From Sebaldella termitidis ATCC 33386 (GTDB lineage Bacteria > Fusobacteriota > Fusobacteriia > Fusobacteriales > Leptotrichiaceae): DNA of 64,000 nt. The position numbers and the translations under genes were made by a program. Location of the stretch: the NCBI RefSeq assembly GCF_000024405.1, contig NC_013517.1:806001-870000 (forward strand), in the 5' to 3' direction. This document shows, in pieces, positions 36,502 to 38,712 of this stretch; within the stretch, counting starts at the first letter, position 1; each line of letters opens with the position of its first letter. The notes beneath the pieces are model-generated. The model had not been told where the DNA came from, made no database searches, and was given only the letters and a program-made list of their open reading frames with translations.

Positions 36502-36798
36502 GTGGTACTTATAAAAATTCAAAAAGCATTTGAAATTCTGGGTAAAAAATGGTCAGGTCTGGTATTATACACACTATTGGAAGATCCTATGAGATTTACG
36601 GATATAAGAAGAAATATTCCTGAATTAAGCGACAGAGTATTGGCAGAGCGCTTAAAAGAGCTGGAACGGCTTCAGCTTGTGAAGAGGAATGTATATACCA
36701 GAATTCCGGTAAAAGTGGAATATGAACTGACCAAAAAAGGAAAAGAACTTGAAAAATCAATGAGAGAAATTGAAATATGGGCAGAGGATAATCTGTAA
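36502..36798 (+). CDS. HxlR-family transcriptional regulator
   Basis: A 98-residue winged helix-turn-helix regulator. Family blocks are ILGKKWSGLVLYTLLEDPMRFTDIRRNIPELSDRVLAERLKELERLQLV and VEYELTKKGKEL. HxlR proteins usually respond to redox or electrophile stress. It lacks the conserved N-terminal cysteine often found before the WT/WS motif in the HypR subgroup. The start is a GTG after GGGAGGGAA. It lies upstream of rtcB-prfH in the same direction, but a hairpin terminator and a separate promoter come between, so a link is uncertain. Confidence 0.9.
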   Translation: MVLIKIQKAFEILGKKWSGLVLYTLLEDPMRFTDIRRNIPELSDRVLAERLKELERLQLVKRNVYTRIPVKVEYELTKKGKELEKSMREIEIWAEDNL

Positions 36799-36812: not shown

Positions 36813-36840
36813 ACAGATTATCATCTGTCTGTTTCTTTTG
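36813..36840 (+). terminator. Terminator-like hairpin after the HxlR gene
   Basis: ACAGAT (36813-36818) pairs with ATCTGT (36823-36828), followed by a T-rich tail interrupted by C and G. Confidence 0.55.
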
Positions 36841-36855
36841 TAAGATAAGAAAAAC

Positions 36856-36885
36856 TTGATTTATATATGATGTATATGGTAAAAT
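36856..36885 (+). promoter_or_regulatory. Candidate promoter for the rtcB-prfH operon
   Basis: TTGATT (36856-36861), an 18-base spacer, TAAAAT (36880-36885). The predicted leader of about 120 bases would contain the short ORF at 36921 and the hairpin at 36964. Confidence 0.4.
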
Positions 36886-36920
36886 AAGTGCTGTATATGA
36901 AAAAGAAGGAGATGGTTTTA

Positions 36921-36953
36921 ATGAAAATAGATAAATGGAGCATGAGAGGATAA
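36921..36953 (+). CDS. Possible 10-residue leader peptide upstream of rtcB
   Basis: An ORF encoding MKIDKWSMRG with a strong AAGGAGAT site seven bases before the ATG. It ends ten bases before the first arm of the hairpin that covers the rtcB ribosome site. The spacing fits a leader peptide whose translation could alter folding downstream. The alternative is that it is a remnant or chance ORF. No similar leader is known to me. Confidence 0.4.
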   Translation: MKIDKWSMRG

Positions 36954-36963
36954 ACATGTTCTG

Positions 36964-37010
36964 TTATTCTCTCGAATGAAAAAATAACACTAAAAAACAG
37001 GAGAGAATAA
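36964..37010 (+). promoter_or_regulatory. Hairpin overlapping the rtcB ribosome binding site
   Basis: A perfect 10-base inverted repeat, TTATTCTCTC (36964-36973) and GAGAGAATAA (37001-37010). The second arm includes three bases of the AGGAG site (36999-37003) and the whole spacer to the TTG start at 37013. The pairing would hide the site, so translation of rtcB may be conditional. The loop is 27 bases. Confidence 0.6.
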
Positions 37011-37012
37011 AA

Positions 37013-38086
37013 TTGATAAACATAGTAAGAAATGAAAAGTCCTGGATAGAGAGCAATGCTGTAGAACAGCTGAAAAAATATGAAAAACTCGACGGGATGA
37101 TAAGAATAACAGGGCTGCCTGATCTGCATGCAGGAAGAGTACCTGTAGGAGCGGCTTTTATAACAGAGAAAAAGATATATCCGTATCTTACAGGGTCAGA
37201 TATCGGATGCGGAATAGCACTGTTTGACACAAAAGTAAAAATGAAAAAATTTAAAAGGGAAAATTTTATAAGAGATCTGAGCAGGGTAAAGCAGATGGAA
37301 GATATAGAAGCTGACTTATCAGAATATGAATTTCCCCATATGGAAAAACTCGGAACAATTGGTTCGGGAAATCATTTTGCCGAATTCCAGAAAATAGAAA
37401 AAATATATCTGAAGGATGAATTTGAAAAGTCAGGTATAAGCAAAGATAATCTTATGCTTTTGGTACACAGCGGTTCAAGGATATACGGGCAGGTCATACT
37501 TGAAAAATATCTGGAAAATCACGGAATGCTTCCTTTGGAAGAAGGCAGTGCGGAATTTGAAGAATATATGAAAGAGCATAATGATGCCGCAGCATATGCA
37601 AAGGCAAACAGGAAAGTAATAGCGGAGAAGCTTCTGAAAGTCATAGGTAAAGGCAAGCCTGATCTGATATTGGACAGTTCGCATAATATGATAGCGGAAA
37701 AAATAGAGATGGGTTCACGGATATATATTCACAGAAAAGGTGCTGCGCCTTCTGATGCAGGAATGATAGTGATTGCCGGAACACGAGACAGTCTTTCATA
37801 TATTGTAAAGCCAAAAGAAAATCTTTCGAAGTACTGCTATTCAATATCTCACGGTGCAGGGAGAAAATGGACGCGTGAGGGATCTAAAGACAGAATGCTA
37901 AAGATTCACGGGAAAAATAAAATAATACAGATGAATAAGAATCTTATATATTCTGACAGAAAAGTATTGTTTGAAGAATCAAGGGAAGCATATAAAAATA
38001 TAGAAAGAGTAATTCAGGATCTTATCAGTCACGATATGATAGAGATTGTAGCTTCTCTGAAGCCTCTTATTACTTTTAAGAGGTAG
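37013..38086 (+). CDS. rtcB: RtcB-family RNA ligase (PrfH-linked type)
   Basis: A GTP- and Mn-dependent ligase that joins RNA 2',3'-cyclic phosphate or 3'-phosphate ends to 5'-OH ends. The 357-residue protein is shorter than E. coli RtcB (408). Active-site elements are present: D63 and C66 in GSDIGCG, N120-H121 in GSGNHF, H152 in VHSGSR, H224 in DSSHN, the guanylated histidine H240 in IHRKGAAP, and SHGAGR at 279-284. The start is TTG with AGGAG nine bases upstream. Five bases separate it from prfH. Such prfH-linked RtcB2 proteins have been described as repairing rRNA cut at the decoding centre. The family is certain; the rRNA target here is inferred from the partner. Confidence 0.93.
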   Translation: MINIVRNEKSWIESNAVEQLKKYEKLDGMIRITGLPDLHAGRVPVGAAFITEKKIYPYLTGSDIGCGIALFDTKVKMKKFKRENFIRDLSRVKQMEDIEADLSEYEFPHMEKLGTIGSGNHFAEFQKIEKIYLKDEFEKSGISKDNLMLLVHSGSRIYGQVILEKYLENHGMLPLEEGSAEFEEYMKEHNDAAAYAKANRKVIAEKLLKVIGKGKPDLILDSSHNMIAEKIEMGSRIYIHRKGAAPSDAGMIVIAGTRDSLSYIVKPKENLSKYCYSISHGAGRKWTREGSKDRMLKIHGKNKIIQMNKNLIYSDRKVLFEESREAYKNIERVIQDLISHDMIEIVASLKPLITFKR

Positions 38087-38091
38087 GGAAC

Positions 38092-38712
38092 ATGCGGATG
38101 ATAATAAGTTCGGGAAATGGTCCCCAAGAATGTGAAAAAGCAGTATACGAATATTTTAAATATTTGAAAAAAGAATTTGCAAAGTATAATATAGAATACA
38201 GGTACATAGAAAGTGAAGCCGGAAACAAGGCGAAAACATTCAGGTCAGTTGTTTTGCAGATAAAAGAAAATACAAAATTTACCAATATATATACCGGAAC
38301 TATTTTATGGATAAATGAAAGTATTTACAGAAAAAATCACAGAAGAAAAAACTGGTATATAAAATCAGTTTTAATCAAAGAAAATGAGTTTTTAAATAAA
38401 AGCATCAGTAAAAAAACAACAGAAATAACAACTATGAGAAGCAGCGGAAACGGCGGTCAAAATGTAAATAAACTGGAAACCGCAGTGAGGATAAAACATA
38501 TTCCCACTGGAATTTCCATAGTTTCCAGAGAAGAAAGAACTCAATATGCCAATAAAAAAGCAGCTGTAAAAAAGCTGGAAGAAAAACTGACTAATATGGA
38601 GATTTATCACCAAAAAGAAGAGGAGATGAAAATCTGGTCTGTTAAAAACGAAATAGAGAGAGGAAATCCTGATCTTATTTTTGAGGGGGATAAGTTCAGA
38701 AGGATAAAATAA
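38092..38712 (+). CDS. prfH: Peptide chain release factor H (PrfH)
   Basis: A stop-codon-independent release factor homologue of 206 residues that frees peptides from damaged ribosomes. The catalytic GGQ is intact at 121-123 in RSSGNGGQNVNKLETAVRI. The N-terminal half (ISSGNGPQECEKAVYEYFKYL) is typical of PrfH rather than of RF1/RF2, which carry codon-recognition domains. The C-terminal tail is basic, with NPDLIFEGDKFRRIK. It follows rtcB in one operon, the standard arrangement of the RtcB2-PrfH rescue-and-repair pair. A strong bidirectional terminator follows. Confidence 0.93.
   Translation: MRMIISSGNGPQECEKAVYEYFKYLKKEFAKYNIEYRYIESEAGNKAKTFRSVVLQIKENTKFTNIYTGTILWINESIYRKNHRRKNWYIKSVLIKENEFLNKSISKKTTEITTMRSSGNGGQNVNKLETAVRIKHIPTGISIVSREERTQYANKKAAVKKLEEKLTNMEIYHQKEEEMKIWSVKNEIERGNPDLIFEGDKFRRIK

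Follow-up and report, generated by a model that had tools for sequence, protein, structure and literature searches.

A conserved leader element with two competing hairpins upstream of rtcB2-prfH in Sebaldella and Clostridiaceae, probably a ribosome-mediated translational attenuator

In the translational attenuators of ermC and cat, a leader ORF is followed by a hairpin that hides the Shine-Dalgarno (SD) sequence of the downstream gene. The position of the ribosome selects the fold, and the SD is freed when a drug halts a ribosome inside the leader. The trp/his-type attenuators of amino-acid operons also depend on the position of the leader ribosome, which chooses between mutually exclusive hairpins.

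A closer parallel is found in P. aeruginosa where, in two papers (PMC13041342, PMC12057347; Morita 2009 as cited there), armZ (PA5471, RtcB-like) and PA5470 (prfH) are described as following a leader, PA5471.1. According to the same papers, complete translation of PA5471.1 forms a terminator (OFF), and ArmZ, the anti-repressor of an efflux pump in the armZ/MexXY drug response, is raised when the ribosome stalls, when codon 3 is made a stop or when the leader is deleted; armZ is also controlled post-transcriptionally by PNPase (PMC12057347, PMC13041342). An earlier, sequence-only reading of the locus studied here knew of no attenuator described for this operon, and was wrong in this, as the PA5471.1-armZ-PA5470 system demonstrates. 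In E. coli ATCC25922 the same gene pair as in Sebaldella, rtcB2-prfH, protects from colicin E3, which cleaves 16S rRNA (PMC9223846); the word 'leader' was looked for in that paper and not found. On an E. coli plasmid, rtcB2 is preceded by a leader ORF with an SD (MTNPLSMTLCRPFQD*), but this SD can pair with the coding sequence of its own leader, an architecture other than that of Sebaldella.

The DNA analysed here (the window) is a stretch of 64,000 nucleotides, positions 806001-870000 of the main contig of the 4.49-Mb genome of Sebaldella termitidis ATCC 33386. The gene order is hxlR-like regulator (36502-36798, Pfam HxlR), leader, rtcB2, prfH. The rtcB2 gene (37013-38086, + strand, TTG start) encodes a release-type RtcB RNA ligase (TIGR03073, 365 bits, cut-off 272; NF007153, 476 bits, cut-off 407), and prfH (38092-38712, + strand) encodes peptide chain release factor H (TIGR03072, 194 bits, cut-off 167). 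Among 98 Fusobacteriota genomes, the family cut-off for rtcB2 is passed by three Sebaldella genomes only. A promoter is predicted, by its match to consensus, at 36856-36885 on the + strand (TTGATT, 18 nt, TAAAAT, with TG before the -10), and TTGATT-18-TARAAT (TAAAAT or TAGAAT) stands 65-66 nt 5' of the leader ATG at each of the three Sebaldella loci. This predicted promoter makes it less likely that transcription begins 3' of 36973, which the sequence-only reading had named as one of the findings that would count against it. A weak terminator-like hairpin (36813-36840; ACAGAT-TATC-ATCTGT with a T-rich tail) lies 3' of hxlR, occurs also in a second Sebaldella genome (G001), and suggests that hxlR and rtcB are transcribed separately. 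The prfH SD is placed within a hairpin at the 3' end of rtcB (38057-38099, CCTCTTATTACTTTTAAGAGG), an arrangement kept in the three Sebaldella loci, which makes translational coupling of prfH to rtcB likely.

The leader ORF (ATGAAAATAGATAAATGGAGCATGAGAGGATAA; 36921-36953, + strand) has 10 codons, reads MKIDKWSMRG* and, as had been noticed before, is preceded by a strong SD, AAGGAGAT, at 36906-36913 on the same strand. Three segments of the + strand make up the element. Segment 1 (GAGAGGATAA, 36944-36953) comprises the last leader codons and stop, AGA GGA TAA, plus the preceding base, and is a near-repeat of segment 3. Segment 2 (TTATTCTCTC, 36964-36973) is the anti-SD arm, and segment 3 (GAGAGAATAA, 37001-37010) lies over the rtcB SD and spacer. 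Segments 2 and 3 form the perfect 10-base inverted repeat that the sequence-only reading had reported; segment 1 pairs with segment 2 through nine Watson-Crick pairs and one G-U. Folded alone, the two hairpins are near equal (-11.7 kcal/mol for 1:2, -10.8 kcal/mol for 2:3). Because segment 2 is shared by the 1:2 hairpin, which leaves the rtcB SD free, and by the 2:3 hairpin, which hides it, the pairings are mutually exclusive; one overlaps the leader and the other would control rtcB, the arrangement of a ribosome-mediated attenuator. The earlier reading had missed segment 1 and saw a single hairpin, and so left unexplained how a ribosome might open it.

The rtcB SD itself is AGGAG (36999-37003, + strand), 9 nt 5' of the TTG at 37013. 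The right arm of the 2:3 hairpin covers three of these five bases, in agreement with the earlier claim that it lies on part of the site, and the spacer as far as 37010; it does not take in the whole spacer as had been stated, since 2 nt are left before the TTG. With 2:3 formed, the calculated probability that segment 3 is open is only some 0.1-0.2 at most loci, and this OFF hairpin is predicted to sequester the SD of the downstream rtcB in the manner of translational attenuators. A further hairpin, A (36935-36944 / 36955-36964, + strand), is present in the minimum free energy (MFE) structure and has an energy of -8.1 kcal/mol alone. Its pairing is maintained in G001 despite two substitutions and is absent in the third Sebaldella genome, G003; none was identified in the Clostridium loci. 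There is also a second mini-ORF (36956-36979, MFCYSLE*), which begins 2 nt past the leader stop, overlaps segment 2 and has segment 1 as a possible SD. It is present in two of the three Sebaldella genomes (MFYYSLK* in G001) and absent in G003.

When positions 36890-37040 are folded, as the sequence-only reading had proposed, the 2:3 hairpin appears in both the MFE and the centroid structure, and the energy is -20.6 kcal/mol, compared with -14.1 (sd 2.8) in shuffled sequences (z = -2.3). When the spacer from leader to SD was shuffled 1000 times with dinucleotides preserved, only 5 shuffles matched both targets as well as the real sequence does. Three other SD-bearing ORFs in the window have an upstream:SD duplex at least as strong, and no Rfam family matched at gathering score. 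The window sequence by itself is moderately convincing at best; conservation decides.

The three-segment layout is found 5' of rtcB2-prfH in all three operon-bearing Sebaldella genomes and at ten Clostridiaceae loci. These 13 loci are the window, G001, G003 and Clostridiaceae L144, L146-L150, L153 and L155-L157; left out are C. neonatale L106 and Clostridium L152 and L154, where a recognisable three-segment element is absent, and L145, which has a leader and a weak third segment. Identity of rtcB ranges over 42-100% across the 13 loci and, relative to the window, is 88% for G001 and 65% for G003. The G001 leader peptide is identical to that of the window, with 2 of 33 nt changed in the ORF, both silently, while that of G003 is MTILNKRGLRG*, with the same three segments; AAGGAG of the leader SD is retained in both. 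The leaders of Clostridium follow the pattern M..NxMVRE(V/I/D) (for example MIKNLMVREI), and the Clostridiaceae loci have GAGAGAA at the leader end, then TTCTCTC, and GGAGAGAA over the rtcB SD, the last being found at segment 3 in 12 of the 13 loci. Both the ORF and the arms are therefore kept in relatives, and the leader-ORF attenuator layout with an SD-hiding hairpin, proposed from the window sequence with loss of such conservation as its test, is supported. A short and apparently translatable ORF with its own SD, conserved 5' of the regulated gene, is likewise what a ribosome-mediated attenuator would have.

The geometry is conserved as well. Segment 1 starts 20-26 nt past the leader ATG at every one of the 13 loci, a fixed distance that sets it just past an initiating ribosome and within the footprint of a terminating one, and all 13 have a leader ORF and SD, whereas the loops vary widely (8-48 and 23-108 nt). 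The leader peptides of Sebaldella and Clostridium differ save for the residues encoded by segment 1, and no conserved arrest peptide, of the kind found in erm-type drug-arrest leaders, occurs across the 13 loci beyond those residues; an arrest-peptide role for the leader was rejected on this ground.

A chance match of a pyrimidine tract to purine-rich, SD-like stretches, with no regulation at all, has to be weighed here, because a single pyrimidine tract fits both an SD (segment 3) and a stretch resembling one (segment 1), and because the core scarcely varies. It is nevertheless extremely improbable: dinucleotide shuffles of the spacer attain both observed pairing energies in 0-7 of 1000 cases at each of the 13 loci, the distance from ATG to segment 1 is fixed, the pattern is unique in the genome, and compensatory changes are present. 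By pattern search, the order segment 1-segment 2-segment 3 has one match in the 4.49-Mb window genome, at the rtcB2 leader, and the reversed control pattern has zero; in 207 Clostridiaceae genomes there are six matches, five of them 5' of rtcB2. The compensatory changes, for which the sequence-only reading had advised looking in the arms, consist of A-U to G-C in both helices at L155 (the covarying version) and A-U to C-G in 2:3 at L156. Their extent is modest (shuffles reach the observed covariation counts in 14-46 of 500), because the core is the SD and hardly varies. In a tree of RtcB2, the type A loci cluster together, separate from the gamma and type B loci. That the segments constitute a conserved regulatory element can be held with high confidence.

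How the leader might act was modelled by masking a ribosome footprint (-15 to +14 around the P-site codon) during folding. In the window, when the P site holds the last sense codon, the footprint stops one or two nt short of segment 2. Once the ribosome stands at about codon 5 or beyond, it covers segment 1; the probability of 2:3 is then 0.8-1.0 at nearly every locus, which closes the rtcB SD. Most loci favour 1:2 when the RNA is free or carries a ribosome at codons 1-2, and several are bistable when free. For the window RNA before segment 3 is made, the probability of 1:2 is 0.79, 1.00, 1.00 and 0.78 with the ribosome at codons 1 to 4, and 0.00 at codon 5 or later. At this stage, 1:2 prevails as long as the ribosome is within codons 1-4 and can no longer form once it has reached codon 5. 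It is therefore proposed that completion of the leader turns rtcB off and early stalling turns it on, a direction that we consider likely. For the full-length window RNA at equilibrium, 2:3 is the preferred pairing in most states, including the ribosome-free one (OFF). For stalls at codons 2 and 3, the probability of 1:2 is 0.67 and 0.37 with one choice of ends and at most 0.06 with others, and the G001 RNA is OFF with the ribosome at every codon. The equilibrium result for the window is equivocal because hairpin A competes with 1:2 and, since it favours 2:3, the ON state in S. termitidis would need co-transcriptional trapping. The folding of the window's own RNA supports the attenuator reading only weakly.

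Since the full-length window RNA is OFF at equilibrium when free of ribosomes, an opener is required, which also suits the opposite rule, by which a ribosome over segment 2, brought there by slow termination or by re-initiation at mini-ORF 36956-36979, breaks 2:3 and turns rtcB on. This is nearer to the sequence-only reading, in which a stalled ribosome could open the hairpin; the SD-like segment 1 stands directly 5' of the ATG at 36956, and the mini-ORF is retained in G001. However, G003 is without the mini-ORF, segment 2 in Clostridium lies up to 45 nt past the leader stop, beyond reach, segment 1 would have no pairing role although its pairing is conserved in 13 loci, and deletion of the leader gives ON in P. 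aeruginosa, all of which make the opposite rule unlikely. The bistability of several loci without a ribosome, and the control of P. aeruginosa armZ by PNPase, could instead point to a leader-independent RNA switch, with a protein (RtcB2/PrfH as autoregulator), a small RNA or temperature picking 1:2 or 2:3 and the ORF being incidental. Such a switch is very unlikely, given that ORF and SD are kept in 13 of 13 loci while the loops vary, that the ORF changes between window and G001 are all silent, and that leader ORFs stand at 54 of 90 rtcB-prfH operons, where 7.0 would be expected.

The best explanation is probably that the rtcB2-prfH operon is under a ribosome-mediated translational attenuator. 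Under such an attenuator, the mRNA would begin about 30 nt 5' of a short, well-initiated leader ORF, with segment 2, just past it, able to pair with segment 1 or with segment 3. Normal translation to the leader end would mask segment 1, and 2:3 would then keep rtcB off. If a ribosome stalled in the first codons after initiating, segment 1 would be left free yet close, and 1:2 would form, the choice being made co-transcriptionally; the rtcB SD would then be open, RtcB2 would be made, and PrfH would follow by coupling. The switch would report the ability of ribosomes to complete a 10-codon message, with ribosome damage as its presumed natural signal, and failure to finish the leader would be a sensible trigger for genes that rescue and repair ribosomes nicked in the decoding centre. 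The first suggestion is supported insofar as a leader attenuator with an SD-hiding hairpin is concerned, yet was incomplete, as the position of the stall would decide (ON early, OFF at the leader end).

Compared through the published descriptions, PA5471.1-armZ shares with this element a short leader peptide, an RtcB-like gene followed by prfH, and competing RNA segments, and has the same sign as proposed here on the same target operon. The OFF state is a transcription terminator there but would be an SD-hiding hairpin in Sebaldella and Clostridium; no terminator-like site was found on the + strand between leader and rtcB in the window, where the right arm is the rtcB SD. The logic is similar, the element is not the same, and that of Sebaldella and Clostridium would be a new, translational variant of known regulation on the rtcB2-prfH operon.

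With ermC and cat it has in common the leader ORF, the SD-hiding hairpin and, as proposed, a fold set by ribosome position, but a ribosome at the leader end would close the SD and an early stall would open it, and in place of a conserved arrest peptide it is mainly the residues encoded by segment 1 that recur. The mutually exclusive hairpins, set as proposed by the position of the leader ribosome, resemble those of the trp/his type, but translation rather than termination would be controlled, and there is no run of regulatory codons.

The 90 regions surveyed 5' of rtcB were non-redundant, from loci with prfH or release-type rtcB, Bacteroidota included; the 54 short ORFs have SDs, the expectation is from shuffles, and the Bacteroidota loci are almost entirely without a leader ORF. 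Distant rtcB-prfH operons, from Lachnospiraceae, Treponema, E. coli, Proteus, an IncC plasmid and a viral contig (L060, L063, L072, L045, L070, L073, L086, L099, L100, L101, L158 and L169), have leader ORFs with strong SDs. A scan of viral contigs with the rtcB alignment gave distant relatives only. In Lachnospiraceae, Treponema, E. coli and Proteus, the leader SD, read by eye, is often complementary to the coding sequence of its own leader. The type B leaders of other Clostridia (L122, L163-L168), also read by eye, mostly end in GAGGTG, with CACCTGA-like stretches and terminator-like hairpins downstream (e.g. CACGATAAGGTTATCGTGTTTTTT), and are probably transcriptional attenuators. On the conjugative IncC plasmid (L100, NZ_CP086440.1), rtcB2-prfH with a 13-codon leader (MQNTSTSFAGLVR*) adjoins sul1; ribosome repair thus moves with resistance genes.

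We give an even chance to the broader proposal that leader-peptide attenuators reading ribosome competence, whether ancestral or evolved repeatedly, control ribosome repair by rtcB2-prfH in Fusobacteriota, Clostridia, Spirochaetota and Gammaproteobacteria. Some would act on translation by hiding the SD and others on transcription through a terminator, and the PA5471.1 drug response of P. aeruginosa would be a single branch of a sensor that detects decoding-centre damage in general. In the literature searched, no description was found, outside P. aeruginosa, of how nicked ribosomes are detected and their repair by rtcB2-prfH induced. If the attenuator reading is right, rtcB2-prfH would be switched on when ribosomes fail to complete a very short trial ORF, so that their function is read directly, with no protein sensor, and the armZ/MexXY drug response would be a co-opted branch of a wider family of ribosome-repair attenuators.
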